Shown here piece after piece: positions 53,391 through 60,050 of a stretch of DNA of 64,000 nt; within the stretch, counting starts at the first letter, position 1, and each line of letters begins with the position of its first letter. Below the pieces are notes generated by a model. That model saw only the letters and a list, made by a program, of their open reading frames with translations, made no database searches and was not told where the DNA came from. The position numbers and the translations under genes are program-made. The stretch comes from Meiothermus sp. Pnk-1 (GTDB taxonomy: Bacteria > Deinococcota > Deinococci > Deinococcales > Thermaceae). Where the stretch lies: assembly GCF_003226535.1 (NCBI RefSeq), contig NZ_QKOB01000006.1, positions 87,136 through 151,135 on the forward strand, read 5' to 3'.

Positions 53391-54083
53391 ATGACCCCCC
53401 TCGAGCTGATCCAAGCGGCTGGGCCGGTGTTGTGGGCCATCCTGGCACTTTCGCTGTACGTGGTGTACACGTTCTTCTTGCACCTGCAAGCCCTCTTGCG
53501 CCTAGGCCGGGATAGCCGGTTACTCTTGACCCGGGTCCACGCCTCGATCATGCACGGCGACCTGGCCGGGGCCCTGCGGGAGGTGCGGCGTGAGCGGAGC
53601 GCGGTAGCGAATGTGCTGCGGGCGGGGCTCGAGCGGGCTGAAGTGGGAGGGATCGAAGCCGCGCTCAACGAGGCGGTGCAGTACGAGGAGGCCCGGCTTT
53701 TCCGGCCCTTGGGCGGCTTGGGAACGGCGGCCCAGATCGGCCCGCTGCTGGGGTTGTTGGGCACGGTGATCGGGATGATCCGCTCGTTCCTGGTCTTCGC
53801 TCAATCTCCCAACCCCACCCCCACCCAGCTCTCCACCGGGATCAGCGAGGCGTTGGTCAACACCGCAGCGGGGCTCATCGTGGCGATCGTGGCCTATCTG
53901 GCCCGTAGCTACCTGCGCAACCGAGCCGAGGCCCTGCTGCTGGGGGTGGACCGGGCGCGCGAGGCCCTCCCGGCTTGGCTCGCCGAGGCCCAGCTTCGCC
54001 GCGAGGGCCGCCTGCGAGGAGCCCCGGCCCCGCTTTACGAACCCGACCGGGTGGAGGCTGTGAGCCCCAAGGAGGGCGCATGA
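53391..54083 (+). CDS. exbB: ExbB/TolQ/MotA-type proton channel protein
   Basis: 230 residues with three transmembrane segments (about 8-28, 105-128, 150-172). The family core LGGLGTAAQIGPLLGLLGTVIGMIRSF and GISEALVNTAAGLIVAIVAYL is clear. It uses the proton gradient to drive an envelope-spanning partner. The stop overlaps the exbD start by four bases. The alternative names TolQ or MotA-like cannot be excluded. Confidence 0.9.
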   Translation: MTPLELIQAAGPVLWAILALSLYVVYTFFLHLQALLRLGRDSRLLLTRVHASIMHGDLAGALREVRRERSAVANVLRAGLERAEVGGIEAALNEAVQYEEARLFRPLGGLGTAAQIGPLLGLLGTVIGMIRSFLVFAQSPNPTPTQLSTGISEALVNTAAGLIVAIVAYLARSYLRNRAEALLLGVDRAREALPAWLAEAQLRREGRLRGAPAPLYEPDRVEAVSPKEGA

Positions 54084-54487
54084 GGCGCCGAGCGGGCCTG
54101 GGGCGGCGCACCCTCGAGCCCGTAGAGTTCAACTTCGCCCCCATGGTGGATGTGGTGTTGATCCTGGTGATCTTCTTCATGCTGGCGGCCAACCTGAACC
54201 GCCCGGATCGGGCCTTTGCGGTAGACCTGCCCCAGGCCAGCACCGCCCAGGCCATCCCCCAAGCCCCGCTGGTGATCGCCCTCAGCCGGAACGGACAGGT
54301 GGCCCTCAACGGCCAGGTGGTGAGCCCGGCAGCGCTCGAAGGAGAGCTGCGCAAAGCCCTCAAGAACCCCAACCGCGCGGTCTTGCTCGAGGCCGATAAG
54401 GCCGCCACCCACGGAAGGGTGGTCTCGCTCATCAACCTGGTGCGCTTGGCCGGAGGGACCCGGCTGGAGATCGCCACCCTGCCCTGA
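54080..54487 (+). CDS. exbD: ExbD/TolR-type protein
   Basis: 135 residues. One N-terminal transmembrane helix with the essential Asp (APMVDVVLILVIFFMLAANLN), then the periplasmic TolR/ExbD domain. GGAGG is five bases before ATG 54080, and ATGA overlap couples it to exbB. It should form the channel with ExbB. Confidence 0.9.
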   Translation: MRRRAGLGRRTLEPVEFNFAPMVDVVLILVIFFMLAANLNRPDRAFAVDLPQASTAQAIPQAPLVIALSRNGQVALNGQVVSPAALEGELRKALKNPNRAVLLEADKAATHGRVVSLINLVRLAGGTRLEIATLP

Positions 54488-54488
54488 A

Positions 54489-55805
54489 ATGACCCCGTCC
54501 CTGCCCCCTAACGCCGAACGCAGCCGAGCGCTGCTGGCCGCGCTGCTATTTCACCTGGCCCTCTTGGTGTGGCTGGGGTTGTTGCCCCCCCTGCGCCCTT
54601 CGGCCCCGCCCCCGCTCCGCATCACCGTAGCGCCTCCCCCGACCCCGGCGGCGCAGCCTGCGCCTAGCCCCACCCCCCCGGCGGTCAGACCCCCCCAGGT
54701 GCGCCCGGCCCCAACACCCAAACCGAAACCTGCCGTACCCTCTTCGGCTCAGGCTCGAGCCTCCCAAGCCACCGCACAACCGCGGGCCGGGAGCCGCACC
54801 GTCCAGCCCGGCCCCCTACCCAAAGCTGAGCCTCAGCCCACCCCGCGTCCGGAGGTCGCCTCCCGGCCCAATCCGGCCCTCGACTCTCCGCAAAACGGCC
54901 CGCTCGAGCCCCCCAGCCCGGTCCGGTCCGCTCCGGTGGGCGAAAACACCGCGGCAGCTCGCCAGGCCCTCACCCCCTCCCCCGAAGGGAACCTGCCCGC
55001 CCGCCCTGCCCCCTCGCCCGAGATGCAAGTCGGGGGTGGACGTAGCCCCGGTAACACCCCCATCCCCGAGGGGCAGCCGCGCTCGAGGGCGGCCAACCCG
55101 ACTTCCGCGCAGGCCGAACCCATAGCAGCCTCGCCGCGTTCGGGAAGCGCGCCGCTCCCCGAACCCCAGGCCGATACGGTATCCGCCCCTGACTCCCTGC
55201 GGCGCAACGGCACCTCTCCCGCGCCGGATGCCGCCTCGAGCCCCACCCCGGCCCCGCTCGCCGAGCCCCAACCTGCCGCGCCGCACCCTGGCCCTGAGAC
55301 CGTGGGGAGCGAGTCCACCCGCATAGCCCCCAAGACCACCCCGTCCCCACATCCCAGCGAGCAAGCCCGCCAGGACGGCCCGGAAGCTGCCGCAGCCCAG
55401 CCGGGGGTCGAGGCAGACGGTCTCGCCGGAGGGAGGGCAGGCGGCAGGGACCAGCCGGATTGCGCCGTCGTGGTGGATGCCCGGGGACTCTCCCCCCGCC
55501 TCTCCCCTAGTCCTTCGCCGGCAGTGCTCGACCCCAGCGGTAAGAAAGTCTGGCCTAACTCCGAGGCCGTCAAGGGAATTTCCTCCAACTTGGTCAATAA
55601 GACCAGCATCGCCCTGTTCTTTGAGAAAGAAGCCGAGGTCGCCTTCGGACAATACACCCGCACCCTCAAGGTGCGCGCCGAGGCCACCAAGCCTTCGGAG
55701 TTCGCCACCTCCTCTAAATTCAACGACTACGTGATGGTTTCCAAAACCGACGCCGAGCGCATCCAATCGGCGGGGTTGACCTGCCAAATGATCTTCCTGA
55801 GGTGA
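54489..55805 (+). CDS. TonB-like Pro-rich envelope-spanning protein
   Basis: 438 residues. One N-terminal helix (ALLAALLFHLALLVWLGLLPPL, read in parts), about 280 residues very rich in Pro, Ala and Ser, then a C-terminal domain of about 110 residues starting DCAVVVDARGLSPRLSPSPS. TonB has the same anchor-plus-Pro-linker design, and the gene follows exbB-exbD with one base between stop and start. The C-terminal domain does not resemble the classic TonB fold; VVDARGL...P resembles a segment in LPP20-type lipoproteins. Partner unknown. Confidence 0.7.
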   Translation: MTPSLPPNAERSRALLAALLFHLALLVWLGLLPPLRPSAPPPLRITVAPPPTPAAQPAPSPTPPAVRPPQVRPAPTPKPKPAVPSSAQARASQATAQPRAGSRTVQPGPLPKAEPQPTPRPEVASRPNPALDSPQNGPLEPPSPVRSAPVGENTAAARQALTPSPEGNLPARPAPSPEMQVGGGRSPGNTPIPEGQPRSRAANPTSAQAEPIAASPRSGSAPLPEPQADTVSAPDSLRRNGTSPAPDAASSPTPAPLAEPQPAAPHPGPETVGSESTRIAPKTTPSPHPSEQARQDGPEAAAAQPGVEADGLAGGRAGGRDQPDCAVVVDARGLSPRLSPSPSPAVLDPSGKKVWPNSEAVKGISSNLVNKTSIALFFEKEAEVAFGQYTRTLKVRAEATKPSEFATSSKFNDYVMVSKTDAERIQSAGLTCQMIFLR

Positions 55806-55809
55806 CCCG

Positions 55810-56505
55810 ATGCAGCGGATGGTGATTTTTCTCAGCTTGAGCTTCCTCGCATCAGCCCTAGCCTGGCAACCGGCCCCCGACCTCGAAACCGCCCAGCGGG
55901 TAGTGGACGGGGCGTATAGCCGTATCCCTACCGTAGAGACCTCGACTACCGTGGACCTGAGCGTAAAGGACAAAAGTTTTTCCGGTGGCGTGGGGGTCAA
56001 GACGCTGTATGGAAACCCCGCCGCCTGCTTAGCCCCTTGGCTCGAGAACCCCGAGGCCTATGCCCAGTACGGTAGCCGCCCGCACTCCATCACGGTGGCG
56101 GGCCAGGCGGACGTAATCAGCCTGGAGGCTCAGCGGGTGCGCAATGCCTTCAAGAACCTATCCGCCCAGGAAGCGCTCTCGAGGGCACAAAAAATCCTGC
56201 CTGCCGGACACCTACGCATCTTTGTGGAGATTTGGGGGCTGGCCAAACCCGCCCTCCGCGCCGCCTATACCGTCGGGCTGGGCGGCCTAGGCAACGGCTT
56301 CGTGATGCCTTACAAATCGGCCTACCTGGACGACTGGAAACCGCTTGACAGCGACCCTGGGCGCTACAGCGGCACCATGGTCTATTACTTCGATCTCTCG
56401 AAGACCAGCGTGGATCCCAAAGGTACCCTCAACGTGGTGATCAAGACCGAGGCTGACAGCGATTGCGCCTATATCGTGCCGGTGGACCTGTCAAAGTTTG
56501 AATAA
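55810..56505 (+). CDS. Secreted protein of unknown function
   Basis: 231 residues with a signal peptide (MQRMVIFLSLSFLASALAWQ). The body has few cysteines (ACLAPW and SDCAYI) and beta-rich stretches such as RYSGTMVYYFDLSKT. NVVIKTEADSDCAYIVPVDL ends the protein. The gene starts four bases after the TonB-like stop, so it is probably the last gene of the exbB operon and may be the component energised by it. I do not recognise the family. Confidence 0.65.
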   Translation: MQRMVIFLSLSFLASALAWQPAPDLETAQRVVDGAYSRIPTVETSTTVDLSVKDKSFSGGVGVKTLYGNPAACLAPWLENPEAYAQYGSRPHSITVAGQADVISLEAQRVRNAFKNLSAQEALSRAQKILPAGHLRIFVEIWGLAKPALRAAYTVGLGGLGNGFVMPYKSAYLDDWKPLDSDPGRYSGTMVYYFDLSKTSVDPKGTLNVVIKTEADSDCAYIVPVDLSKFE

Positions 56506-56533: not shown

Positions 56534-56580
56534 TGGTGGCTATGGGCGGACTTGAACCGCCGACACCACGATTATGAGTC
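56534..56580 (-). repeat. Distal attachment repeat (partial tRNA-Met copy)
   Basis: 47 bp identical to 59974-60020. It spans from the CCA end of tRNA-Met back to the anticodon loop. It lacks the 5' half of the tRNA, so it is not functional; it marks the far end of the inserted element. Confidence 0.95.
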
Positions 56581-56888
56581 CCCCCAACCCACTGGTAATG
56601 TAGCCTCACCGGGTTCTGGACACAAGAACCGGTCTATGCCCTAATCCAAGGGGCAGTCTATGACATGCAGTCCATACTTTCAAGGGGGTACGCTTACCCG
56701 CCATTATATATGTCGGTACCCAAAATTCATGCCCCAATCCCTGTCCTACACGACCTTTCCTTGAGGTCAATACTTTCCCCTTATATACTCGAGTACAAGT
56801 TTGTAGACTTATCCCTGTCCTAGACTCTACTCATACACCTCAATGCTAGCTACTCACTCCTCTCAACCCTGTGCTGTGTGACTTACTC
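56581..56888. other. Non-coding end of the element, possible replication origin
   Basis: 308 bp, A/T-richer than the rest. It contains the direct repeat ATCCCTGTCCTA (56737-56748 and 56811-56822), the palindrome TACTCGAGTA, and short related motifs (CAATACTTTCC-like). It lies downstream of rep. No gene is seen; a double-strand origin is possible. Confidence 0.35.
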
Positions 56889-57500
56889 CTAAGGCAGTTG
56901 ACCCCACCGAGGGCTAAGGTGAGCGCTATGCTTACCCTCATCCTTGTCCTGTGAGTACTTACTCCTCACATCCTTTGTACTTGGTAACCCACCTTCGTAG
57001 GTAGCCTTCGCCATGTAGCTCCCCCAACGTCCTATGTCCTTTTGGTCAATCCGTCCTCCCCACTGCGGCCTATGCTTGACTTCTGGGGCATGCCAACCGT
57101 GAAGCTCTGATTCGACCATGGCCCAGGTGTACTCCTCTAGGCGCTCAGCCGCACTCAGCAAGTTCCACGCTTCCCGCGTCTGCGCTGCTGTAACGTGGGC
57201 ATGTGCACCCATCCCGTCAGCGTCAAGTTCATACTTGATGACGTGTGGAGTACTGCCGAGGGCGCGCTCGAGCTCACGCTCGAACGCACCCCGCTTACGC
57301 TTGTCCGTCAGCCACTCCTTCGGACCTTTGTACGTGCTTGTAATCACACCAGGTGCCCACTCCGGGTCACCGCTGCGCACTAGCCTGTCCAGCCTGTCCA
57401 CCCACCGCTTGGTGGCCCTGGCGTGCTGCTTCCTCTCGAGGCTCGTGCGCCGTGCCGCTTCGGGCACATAGCGTACTGGTCTACGTGCTTTGCGCGGCAT
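56889..57500 (-). CDS. Putative rolling-circle Rep protein (HUH endonuclease)
   Basis: 203 residues. Three features in order fit rolling-circle Reps: a T-rich strand GVITSTYKG (about residues 51-59; motif 1), GMGAHAHVT with His100-Ala-His102 (HUH, motif 2), and GSYMAKATYEG with Tyr162-x-x-Lys165 (motif 3). The tail HSAHLSPRWG resembles the end of small phage and plasmid Reps. It would nick the origin and join the 5' end to Tyr162. It begins two bases after the upstream gene's stop. No database check was possible. Confidence 0.6.
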   Translation of the reverse strand: MPRKARRPVRYVPEAARRTSLERKQHARATKRWVDRLDRLVRSGDPEWAPGVITSTYKGPKEWLTDKRKRGAFERELERALGSTPHVIKYELDADGMGAHAHVTAAQTREAWNLLSAAERLEEYTWAMVESELHGWHAPEVKHRPQWGGRIDQKDIGRWGSYMAKATYEGGLPSTKDVRSKYSQDKDEGKHSAHLSPRWGQLP

Positions 57501-57502
57501 GG

Positions 57503-58030
57503 CTAGAATTTCTCGGTGACGTCGGCCATGGCCTCGAGGTCGCTCAACTGCACTACGTAGTACGGCTTGTGACCTTCAGCCTTGCCCTCGCGGACTTTCG
57601 CCGCGCTCTCGAAGTCGGCTAGGCGCTCGAGGCCTTGTCCGCCAAGCCGCGAAGGTAGGAAGCAGTACACCGCGCACACTTCCTCGCGCTTACTGTCCAC
57701 CAGGGCGTAAATCAGCAAGTTGTCCCAGCGGTGCGCCTTCTCGGCCGTGCCTGCGGTGATGGTGACGCTACCGTGCCAGTGCGCGCCCTCAACCTCGGTT
57801 TGCTTCACCTCGATGCGCACTCGGTGGTCGCCCAAGAGGACCTCCGCGTCCCAGCCATGCGCACGTTCGTGTGACGTGTAGGACACCTGGTCCACAGGCT
57901 GAGGCAGCTTGCCATGCTTAGCCAGGGCCTCCAGCGCCTTAGGCACGATACGCGTTTCCCAGACTTTGAAGTACTCGTAGTACTCCAGGCTTAGGGTCGT
58001 CGTTGAAAGTGATGGTGTGCTATAATTCAT
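57503..58030 (-). CDS. PD-(D/E)XK-like nuclease domain protein
   Basis: 175 residues, family not recognised. GWDAEVLLGDHRVRIEVKQT has Asp61, Glu74 and Lys76 in the D-x(12)-E-x-K spacing of the PD-(D/E)XK nuclease fold, preceded by a helical N-terminus. It could be a resolvase, a restriction-like nuclease or an accessory replication factor. A terminator-like hairpin lies just upstream of its start. It is followed by rep, probably in the same transcript. Confidence 0.5.
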   Translation of the reverse strand: MNYSTPSLSTTTLSLEYYEYFKVWETRIVPKALEALAKHGKLPQPVDQVSYTSHERAHGWDAEVLLGDHRVRIEVKQTEVEGAHWHGSVTITAGTAEKAHRWDNLLIYALVDSKREEVCAVYCFLPSRLGGQGLERLADFESAAKVREGKAEGHKPYYVVQLSDLEAMADVTEKF

Positions 58031-58043
58031 TCATCTGAACCTC

Positions 58044-58078
58044 AAAAAAGTAGGTCAGGGGTCTGCCAACCCCTGACC
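58044..58078 (-). terminator. Hairpin with U-tract between the HTH gene and the nuclease gene
   Basis: On the minus strand GGTCAGGGG (58078-58070), loop TTGGCAGA, CCCCTGACC (58061-58053), then TACTTTTTT. The U-tract runs into the GAGG that probably serves as ribosome binding site for the nuclease gene, so the hairpin may regulate it as well as end the upstream transcript. Confidence 0.75.
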
Positions 58079-58256
58079 TTTAGTTGCGACTACTTGTGAA
58101 GTTATCCAGGCCCGTAGGCCTTCACACGGACCTACTGCTGCCTGATGCTGCGCCGGGCTCCACTACCCTCGCCATGCCTCAATGCCACGAGGGGGGTTGG
58201 ATACCCCCCTCGCTTTGGAAGCCCGTAAAACGCCTTATAGCGCCTTACAGGGGCCT

Positions 58257-58454
58257 TTAAACCTTGCCCTCAGCCTTAGCTTGCGCGTACTCCCGGCCCT
58301 CGAGGATACGCTGTAGCAGCTCGAGGCTTTCAGTCTCCAGCATGTAGCGCCTACCCCAGCGAATGCTAGGTACCTTGCCGCTACGTGCCCAGTCCCTTAT
58401 GGTGTACCGGTTCACCCCGAGGATTCTTGCCGCTTGACCTGTAGTGAAAAGCAT
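58257..58454 (-). CDS. Excisionase-like MerR/HTH_17 protein
   Basis: 65 residues. LFTTGQAARILGVNRYTIRDWARSGKVPSIRWGRRYMLE is a single winged-helix domain of the excisionase/HTH_17 type. AGGAGG stands seven bases before ATG 58454; the frame is open upstream to 58565 but only this start fits. It probably directs excision by the integrase and may regulate the element. Confidence 0.85.
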   Translation of the reverse strand: MLFTTGQAARILGVNRYTIRDWARSGKVPSIRWGRRYMLETESLELLQRILEGREYAQAKAEGKV

Positions 58455-58465
58455 ACGTCCTCCTG

Positions 58466-58523
58466 GCCTCAGCAAAGCCTGAGGCTCATAACTGCACCTA
58501 ATTAGCTTGGACACCCCATTATA
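58466..58523 (-). promoter_or_regulatory. Promoter -10 and leader hairpin of the excisionase-like gene
   Basis: A consensus TATAAT (58523-58518 on the minus strand) lies 64 bp before the ATG. The leader contains the hairpin GCCTCAG-n6-CTGAGGC (58485-58466), ending just before the ribosome binding site. No clear -35. Confidence 0.5.
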
Positions 58524-58565
58524 TCGTGCGTGGGTTTTGAACCCCATACGCTGGGGGCTTGCCAC

Positions 58566-59031
58566 ATAGGTGGGCGGAGTGAGTCAAGGCCGACGCCTCC
58601 GCGAACTGGGGGTGGTCAGTACGACAGGTGCTCCTGCCCGCGCTAGCGCTGTGACCCCGCGCACTCGCACCGCGCCTTGGCCTCACTGTGGGTAGCTTTT
58701 GGGGGATATGCGGGGGGATTCGTCAATGGGCTCCAGCCTCCCGAGTCGCCACCCACACGGCAATCTCCACACTTGACGCTAGCTCACGGTCAAATTTCCG
58801 CTAATTCCCATTAGGGGAAATTTGCATTCAGCTTTGGTGCGCTTGCCGTGTGCCGCGCCGTGCGTACTCACCCGTCCGGCCTTGCCGCACTCGAGGAGTA
58901 GCTCATGAGGCATGGAGCGTGTCCACACAGCCACGTACCCACCTAGGGGGACAATTTTCCGGGCGTGACGCACCCCATAGCGTTATGGCCTCCCGATGTA
59001 CCGGGGGCTGTCGCCGCCGCGCCGTGCTCAA
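58566..59031. other. Non-coding interior of the element
   Basis: 466 bp between integrase and the HTH gene. A minus-strand frame of 64 codons (58973-58779, GTG start) is open but has no good ribosome binding site; I do not call it. The main structure is a 34-bp dyad at 58791-58824. Confidence 0.4.
58791..58824. repeat. 34-bp dyad in the element
   Basis: Arms CAAATTTCCGCTAAT (58791-58805) and ATTAGGGGAAATTTG (58810-58824) match with one mismatch around the loop TCCC. Candidates are a nick-site hairpin, a single-strand origin or an operator. Confidence 0.7.
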
Positions 59032-59892
59032 TCACACCCAGCGTTCCGGCCTAAGTACTCTGCGGTTGAGGTCTGCCGCTACATCATCCAGCACCAAGTT
59101 CACGTACCGCTGGGTCATGGAAGCAGTCTTGTGACGCATTAGCCGCTGTAGCCGGAAAGCGTCACCGCCTGCTTTCAGGTAATTTGTGGCGAATGTGTGG
59201 CGCAGCAGGTGCGCACCTACAGGCCTAGAAAGTCCAGCCCGCTTTGCCAGTCGCTGCACCCAGCGGCTCACCGAAGTCCCGGTGACCGCTAGACTACCGG
59301 TGGCGAAAAAGTAGCGGCTTTGCCCTCTGCGCTCCGTGGTCAGGTACGCTTTCATGGCCCGGTACACATCGCGGCTCATGGGTACGACGGCGTCTCCAGT
59401 CTTACCCCGTACAATGATAGCCGCGTTCTCCCAGTCCACATCCTCAACCCGCATTCGGGCTACCTCCGAAGCCCGCAAACCTGCCTGTAGCAGCACGTAC
59501 AGCATGGCCCGATTGCGTAGCCGGTAGCGTGGGTCTGACCCAGCCGCAGCAAAAAGGCGGTTTACCTCCTCTTGGGTCAAGGTTTTCTTGGGCTTGTACT
59601 CCTCTCGAGGGCGCTTCATGCCCTCGAATGGAAATTTGGCGATGATGCCGTCACGGTACAGCGCTCTGGTGAATCCGCGTAGCGCCCGCTCATAGATGGC
59701 CTTGGTGTTGGTGGATACATTCCGGTCTAGCACCTTGAGCATAAGAGGCTTGGTCAAGGCGGTCACAGGGTCGCCCTGGTGGTCTCTAAGCAACAGGCTC
59801 AACGTGGTGCGGTACCACCTTATGGTGTCCGGACGCGAACCAAGCCGACGGTGGTCTGCCAGAAAGTACTCGATAGCCTCACCAATGGTCAT
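59032..59892 (-). CDS. int: Tyrosine integrase of the element
   Basis: 286 residues from ATG 59892, chosen for the GGAGG six bases upstream. The N-terminal SAM-like core-binding domain precedes the catalytic domain with Arg (GLRASEVARMRV), Lys (RGKTGD), HLLRHTF (His, Arg), His in LMRHKTA and the nucleophile Tyr in MTQRYVNL: the full R-K-H-R-H-Y set. It lies 81 bp from the tRNA, at the attachment side, and probably recombines the 47-bp site. It is in the same orientation as the tRNA genes. Confidence 0.96.
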   Translation of the reverse strand: MTIGEAIEYFLADHRRLGSRPDTIRWYRTTLSLLLRDHQGDPVTALTKPLMLKVLDRNVSTNTKAIYERALRGFTRALYRDGIIAKFPFEGMKRPREEYKPKKTLTQEEVNRLFAAAGSDPRYRLRNRAMLYVLLQAGLRASEVARMRVEDVDWENAAIIVRGKTGDAVVPMSRDVYRAMKAYLTTERRGQSRYFFATGSLAVTGTSVSRWVQRLAKRAGLSRPVGAHLLRHTFATNYLKAGGDAFRLQRLMRHKTASMTQRYVNLVLDDVAADLNRRVLRPERWV

Positions 59893-59973
59893 ACTGCCCT
59901 CCGTGCTTCGACACACAGACTAGGGCAGTAGACCGGTACACTTTACTTTTCAAACTCTTGCGTCTGGTAAGCT

Positions 59974-60050
59974 TGGTGGCTATGGGCGGACTTGAACCGC
60001 CGACACCACGATTATGAGTCGTGTGCTCTAACCAGCTGAGCTACATAGCC
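59974..60050 (-). tRNA. tRNA-Met (CAT), attachment site of the element
   Basis: 77 nt including encoded CCA. Acceptor GGCTATG/CATAGCC, anticodon arm CACGA-CTCATAA-TCGTG (anticodon CAT), T arm GGCGG/CCGCC. It is not the initiator (paired first base); elongator Met is most likely, but a lysidine-modified Ile tRNA cannot be excluded from sequence. Positions 59974-60020 form the proximal copy of the 47-bp repeat. Confidence 0.93.

Follow-up and report, generated by a model that had tools for sequence, protein, structure and literature searches.

The window, a stretch of 64,000 nucleotides from the heat-loving bacterium Meiothermus sp. Pnk-1, contains a 3,440-bp, four-gene element at positions 56534-59973. 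This element is best read as an integrative element that probably excises and replicates by rolling circle via a new HUH-type Rep protein. A four-gene element had already been proposed in the first-pass annotation of this DNA, and its existence was confirmed and its ends could now be placed. What is new is the Rep, which belongs to a hitherto uncatalogued family; the small integrative element itself is of a known general kind.

The boundaries of the element are formed by 47-bp direct repeats, identical at all 47 positions, which were found by a repeat search of the window (56534-56580 and 59974-60020). The left copy is the att' repeat; the right one makes up the 3' half of a tRNA-Met(CAT) gene that ARAGORN detected as intact (59974-60050, minus strand), the attachment site at the integrase end. 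All four genes of the element lie on the minus strand, in the order integrase, HTH_17 gene, D-x12-E-x-K gene and Rep gene. The tyrosine recombinase (59032-59892) matches Pfam Phage_integrase with an E-value of 4.6e-31, and its ATG start at 59892 is common to the relative described below, the reading frame being open up to a GTG at 59916. The 65-aa HTH_17/excisionase-family protein (58257-58454) scores above the cut-offs of both Pfam HTH_17 (PF12728) and NCBIfam 'excise' (TIGR01764) and is a probable recombination directionality factor (RDF) or activator of the AlpA-like type. Its ATG at 58454 is preceded by AGGAGG, and its frame is open up to a GTG at 58565. A palindrome with 15-bp arms (58791-58824; repeat search, fold z -4.1) sits between the integrase and HTH genes. 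A hairpin followed by a T run, resembling an intrinsic terminator (58052-58079, minus strand; fold z -3.8), sits between the HTH gene and the pair formed by the putative nuclease and Rep genes; it comes from a scan that returned 3 terminator-like sites against 2.9 expected. The genome carries a single copy of the element. With a tyrosine integrase, insertion into a tRNA 3' end and direct repeats, as in integrative and mobilizable elements (IMEs), its anatomy is the usual one for tRNA-targeting integrative elements.

The candidate Rep gene (56889-57500, minus strand, 203 aa) and the gene before it (57503-58030, minus strand, 175 aa) were found as first annotated, and the Rep motifs stand in the order that had been claimed for them: V-I-T54-S-T56, H100-A-H102 and Y162-x-x-K165 (TST 54-56, HAH 100-102 and YMAK 162-165), with a second tyrosine at position 168. 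T54, T56, H100, H102, Y162 and K165 are all retained in the single known relative of this Rep, encoded by a genome of another Thermaceae genus (G004), and the order hydrophobic-T-x-T, E..G..HAH, YMAK is the same in these two sequences, from which the conservation is read. A pattern combining h[TS]x[TS], E..HxHh and YxxK was rare by chance: when the window Rep was shuffled at constant composition, 170 of 200,000 sequences showed it, and for the G004 Rep 149 of 200,000 did. These figures are not clean probabilities, the pattern having been composed after the motifs were seen. Of 606 stop-to-stop ORFs with a length of 120 aa or more in eight sequences, 2 carried it, namely the Reps of the window and of G004, and so did all control Reps except a Thermus Rep_1-type protein (8/9).

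Searches of family libraries assigned the Rep to no family. There was no family match in Pfam, PHROGs, NCBIfam or PADLOC, the weak matches listed belonging to unrelated families, and no sequence match in the PDB; Pfam Rep families, including Rep_1 (PF01446), gave nothing at E-values up to 1 for the window Rep and up to 5 for its relative. Profile comparison with hhalign yielded nothing against pUB110-type Rep_1, P2 gpA and microvirus Rep. Against two Deinococcota Rep_1-type proteins it gave a marginal match (E 0.015) in which the HUH motif is off register by two residues and whose score of 23.8 barely exceeds the highest value from 100 shuffles of the columns, 23.5. In a single-sequence AlphaFold model (mean pLDDT 59), motif 1 and HAH are placed on strands (52-60 and 98-106) and Tyr162 in a helix (153-168), with residues 127-203 below a pLDDT of 50. 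A fold search with this weak model recognised no HUH chain among the matches listed, and its best match, the DNase-I subdomain of RNase E (Z 5.8, 3.3 A over 79 residues), is below the level at which such a match is telling. An inovirus Rep (Dulem virus 51), considered as a bridge to the Reps of filamentous phages, turned out to belong to Rep_trans and led to no viral contig.

Based on motif order and setting, it is very likely that the Rep is an HUH protein, although without a family assignment, and judging by the two sequences it represents a new, rare, HUH-like family with two members. The original suggestion of a rolling-circle Rep in a small mobile element is thus supported by the motifs, by their conservation in the relative with 47% identity, by the predicted order of strands and helix, by the integrase, HTH gene and tRNA att repeats, and by a second element of like build. 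For the HUH assignment as such, profile comparison contributed only the weak and unconvincing match mentioned above.

This second element was found with a two-row Rep profile, which matched 2 of 111 Deinococcota genomes, namely the Pnk-1 genome and G004, where the Rep is 47% identical over 184 aa. The G004 element measures about 9.8 kb and is bounded by tRNA-Trp and a copy of the tRNA-Trp 3' end. Its integrase adjoins the tRNA and is 84% identical to the window integrase, and its HTH protein is 54% identical to the window HTH_17 protein. From the tRNA onwards, it encodes the integrase, a serine-recombinase-like ORF (a label assigned by reading), a type I restriction-modification set, the HTH protein, the Rep and a third gene, so that the order of the Rep and the third gene is swapped relative to the window, and the two genes form separate units. 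Since integrase, HTH, Rep and third gene are found in both elements, they constitute a common core. The restriction-modification genes hsdR, hsdS and hsdM (L005:606-6342), located beside the serine-recombinase-like ORF, look like cargo.

Of 50 Thermaceae genomes, four matched the Rep at E-values up to 0.1, and two of these matches were discarded as chance: one (L003 in G034, E 0.0057) lies in a pilin-gene region with pilin-like ORFs on the other strand, and the other (L004 in G003, E 0.04) has internal stops and lies on a contig of defence-like genes. A tblastn search of 50,697 phage records and of plasmids returned no Rep. Genome contigs and viral contigs likewise gave no relatives in a search that reaches only places sharing short conserved peptides and that therefore leaves distant Rep relatives outside Deinococcota possible. 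In open-access full texts, no paper on the element or on an HUH Rep in Meiothermus or Thermus elements was recognised. A region of G003 (L006:1753-5014, on G003:C12) with nucleotidyltransferase-, E1/E2- and JAB-like neighbours, labelled by reading, resembles a CBASS-type defence set. Furthermore, contig G024:C4 shows Rep_1 matches at 880, 4417, 7469, 10778, 14084 and 17380, a spacing of about 3.3 kb, and probably represents the concatemeric assembly of a rolling-circle plasmid.

The comparison with G004 also revealed conserved attachment arms. The left arm (56613-56683) aligns with the left end of the G004 element at an equal distance from the att' repeat. The right arm (59872-59967), part of which lies inside the integrase gene, aligns with its counterpart with a score of 102; in both cases none of 2,000 shuffles was as good. 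The sequence GGACACAAGA occurs exactly in both left arms, in the window at 56618-56627 within an imperfect inverted repeat, and in the right arm of G004. The strongly conserved integrase leader of the window (59893-59967) contains GACGCAAGAG, and the G004 counterpart has GACACAAGAG. These inverted sites around the core suggest binding by the integrase or an RDF, and the left arm could serve either as an Int/Xis arm site or as an origin. Between the remaining gaps of the two elements, likeness did not go beyond that of shuffles, with the exception of one borderline pair of 12, the integrase-HTH gap against the hsdM-HTH gap, with a score of 26 against a shuffled maximum of 25.

No canonical replication origin was identified among the repeats, the palindrome and the left-arm inverted repeat of the element. 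Two 15-bp direct repeats downstream of the Rep gene (56737-56751 and 56811-56825, spanning 56737-56825; 93% identity, repeat search) may be iterons, or may have arisen by chance. Neither these repeats nor the palindrome, both considered as nick sites, are conserved in G004, whose gaps contain no sequence similar to the palindrome. The left-arm inverted repeat is conserved there, but as GACACAAGA-like sites lie on either side of the core, binding by the integrase or an RDF explains it at least as well; its hairpin strength is not unusual (z -1.7 and 0.1).

The gene before the Rep had been singled out for a D-x12-E-x-K motif, which is present as D61-x12-E74-x-K76, so short a motif being weak alone. 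The gene ends two bases upstream of the Rep gene, and the two are likely to form an operon. The third protein of the G004 element is 28% identical to it in alignment, and the local score of 73 was reached by none of 3,000 shuffles (mean 31.8, sd 5.2). This homologue keeps the aspartate and the glutamate, and the catalytic lysine is replaced by valine (E-V-V), so that the PD-(D/E)XK triad, complete with K76 in the window, is not conserved across the family. The protein had no match in Pfam (Hjc included), PHROGs, NCBIfam or PADLOC, and none from profile comparison. The one above-cut-off Hjc match (PF01870) in the Pnk-1 genome is to a protein encoded elsewhere. The structural model (mean pLDDT 66) shows an N-terminal helix followed by strands bearing D61 and E74, which is compatible with a PD-(D/E)XK fold, not diagnostic of it. 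In the fold search, no PD-(D/E)XK chain was recognised among the matches listed, and the best match, the T4 MotA C-terminal domain (Z 7.3, 2.9 A over 101 residues), is again below a telling level. Plasmids, phages and viral contigs contained no third protein. Its profile matched 19 of the 111 genomes at E-values up to 0.5, with credible matches only in the Pnk-1 genome and G004 and the remainder being short pieces with E-values of 0.003 or worse.

Regarding the proposed PD-(D/E)XK identity, the retention of D and E in the relative speaks for it and the loss of K against it; family, sequence and fold searches did not place the protein. On balance, the fold is slightly favoured, and active cleavage as a conserved function is less probable than the fold. 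It had further been proposed that the protein is a resolvase or a nuclease directed against competing elements. D61, E74 and K76, with a predicted helix and then strands carrying them, would fit such an enzyme. However, the G004 homologue lacks the lysine and is encoded apart from the Rep gene, none of the libraries searched (PADLOC, Pfam with Hjc, PHROGs and NCBIfam) contained a match, and the fold search, in which only unrelated proteins appeared, was uninformative. This role found no support and is improbable; with the lysine missing from the homologue, cleavage is unlikely to be strictly required.

At E-values up to 1e-45, a limit chosen to leave out chromosomal XerC/XerD, the integrase matched 4 of 111 genomes, these being Pnk-1, G004 and the Thermus-like G030 and G044. 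In the latter two, a 1,165-bp insertion between 45-bp tRNA-Lys(CTT) repeats contains an integrase only (L017:8303-9512 and L018:8156-9365) and represents either a minimal integrase-only element or a remnant of the same integrase lineage. The nearest phage integrases are those of the Thermus phages phiFa, P23-45, P74-26 and G20c (46-47% identity).

The tRNA-Met gene is used by more than one kind of element. The genus is represented among the genomes examined by one further genome, G001, in which this gene holds an unrelated 7,025-bp element (L068:2005-9082) with another integrase and a PrimPol-DUF927 protein of 1008 aa, a type of element reported for Meiothermus relatives of ICETh2 (PMC7693054). 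The window element and the G001 element together make tRNA-Met a site for elements with differing replication modules. Next to the element, between a DnaQ-like gene and its left end (53391-56505), the window encodes ExbB (Pfam MotA_ExbB), an ExbD-like ORF, a long proline-rich TonB-like ORF and a further ORF; the matching interval of G001 (L068:9083-9950) is too short for this ExbB/ExbD/TonB-like set.

A likely life cycle can be outlined from these observations. As is evident from the anatomy, the integrase inserts the element into the 3' half of tRNA-Met and leaves an intact tRNA beside the integrase gene, and the HTH_17 protein probably directs excision. In the circular form, the Rep would act as an HUH single-strand endonuclease that introduces a nick into one strand and becomes linked to the 5' end through Tyr162, as the motifs and known elements suggest. 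Rolling-circle replication would then keep or amplify the excised form before re-integration or transfer, in analogy to other elements that combine an integrase with a rolling-circle initiator. IMEs are an established case of a tyrosine integrase targeting tRNA ends being paired with such initiators, which serve maintenance, transfer or both (PMC5704250). The D-x12-E-x-K protein is probably co-transcribed with the Rep in the window copy. It is most likely an accessory DNA-binding or DNA-cleaving protein of PD-(D/E)XK fold rather than a core catalyst, given that the lysine is missing from its homologue, whose gene is not coupled to that of the Rep. Spread from cell to cell would need a helper, which could be a phage, DNA uptake or a conjugation-like system; the element itself encodes no such helper.

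Alternatively, the Rep could be mainly a relaxase, and the element an IME that is nicked at an oriT and rides a resident conjugation-like system as with MobT/Rep_trans proteins, with replication being secondary. This reading is possible, though doubtful. Of the sources consulted, one reports that 118 of 144 streptococcal IMEs encode putative relaxases of the rolling-circle type (PMC5704250), and another that the Thermus elements ICETh1 and ICETh2 reside at tRNA genes, ICETh1 having genes critical for DNA donation in 'transjugation' (PMC7693054). However, no coupling protein or oriT was found in the element, and the Rep is small (203 aa) and falls into none of the Pfam families named in PMC5704250. 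Another explanation, for which the probability is low, is a decayed or immobile remnant without current activity. The single copy in the genome would agree with this, as would the integrase-only version in two Thermus genomes, which indicates that this integrase lineage leaves reduced elements. Against it, none of the four ORFs is interrupted, the two att repeats match at every position, and both arms are conserved between genera.

A minimalist phage satellite is also an unlikely reading. Such an element would be excised and amplified by rolling circle when a phage infects the cell, and would then be packaged as a concatemer by a virulent P23-45-type siphophage or as single strands by a filamentous phage. 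The logic of the PICMI satellites would allow this reading, as they consist of an integrase, an HTH_17/AlpA protein and a replication gene without capsid genes, with replication consistent with rolling circle, and show that an integrase, an HTH_17/AlpA protein and one replication protein can form the core of a phage-borne life (PMC10803314). The closest phage integrases are indeed those of Thermus phages such as P23-45, and a filamentous-prophage-like block with Zot is located on the same contig. However, the integrase likeness may mean only a common source, the element has no known packaging or capsid-interference gene, neither the phage records nor viral contigs contain its Rep, and viral contigs contain no match to its right arm. 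It also shares no DNA with the filamentous-prophage-like block (best blastn E 0.47). This block (L074:7921-13174 on G000:C6, outside the window) comprises a Zot ORF, membrane and acidic-repeat minor-coat-like ORFs, and a Rep-like region apparently split over two frames beside an IS110-like ORF, all labels except Zot being assigned by reading. It is conceivable as a helper for single-stranded DNA. Still less probable than a satellite as such is a new Thermaceae lineage of minimalist satellites, in which an HUH Rep, not the PICMI primase, makes concatemers or single strands for a virulent P23-45-type or a filamentous phage, and the PD-(D/E)XK-like protein has the task of processing the element's concatemers or of harming the helper.

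If the preferred reading of an excising, rolling-circle integrative element is correct, Thermaceae carry very small integrating replicons whose initiator lies outside the family libraries and PDB searches used, and replicons with an HUH Rep stand beside PrimPol-driven elements at the same tRNA hotspot. It would also provide a compact HUH enzyme that is probably thermostable, and a system of four genes for dissecting integration, excision and rolling-circle replication. Furthermore, it would be relevant to the question of how elements with hardly any genes persist in dependence on a helper.

Compared to the HUH initiators Rep_1, P2 gpA and microvirus VP4, the window Rep has the same order of hhTxT, E..HxH and YxxK, without significant sequence or profile similarity to them. 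It has one tyrosine in YxxK and a second conserved tyrosine six residues on, in contrast to Y-x3-Y, the arrangement of P2 and phiX initiators. With IMEs (PMC5704250), the element shares an integrase, an RDF-like small protein, a tRNA 3'-end target and an HUH/RCR-type protein without a mating apparatus of its own; it differs in that its Rep is not Rep_trans, Rep_2 or Rep_1 by Pfam, in its length of 3.4 kb and in its Thermaceae host. ICETh2 and related Thermales elements have in common with it the Thermaceae host, a tyrosine integrase with an excisionase and 47-nt tRNA repeats, but ICETh2 uses PrimPol and a helicase, unlike the HUH-type Rep found here (PMC7693054). The PICMI satellites of Vibrionaceae share with it an integrase, an HTH_17 (AlpA) protein and a replication gene without capsid genes, and in the window element PF00589 and PF12728 were both above cut-off. 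PICMI satellites carry a DUF3987/DUF5906 primase and lie next to fis (PMC10803314), whereas none of the four proteins of the element is a primase, its replication gene encodes an HUH-type Rep and its site is tRNA-Met. Because it has neither the PICMI primase nor the fis site, the element is not a PICMI.
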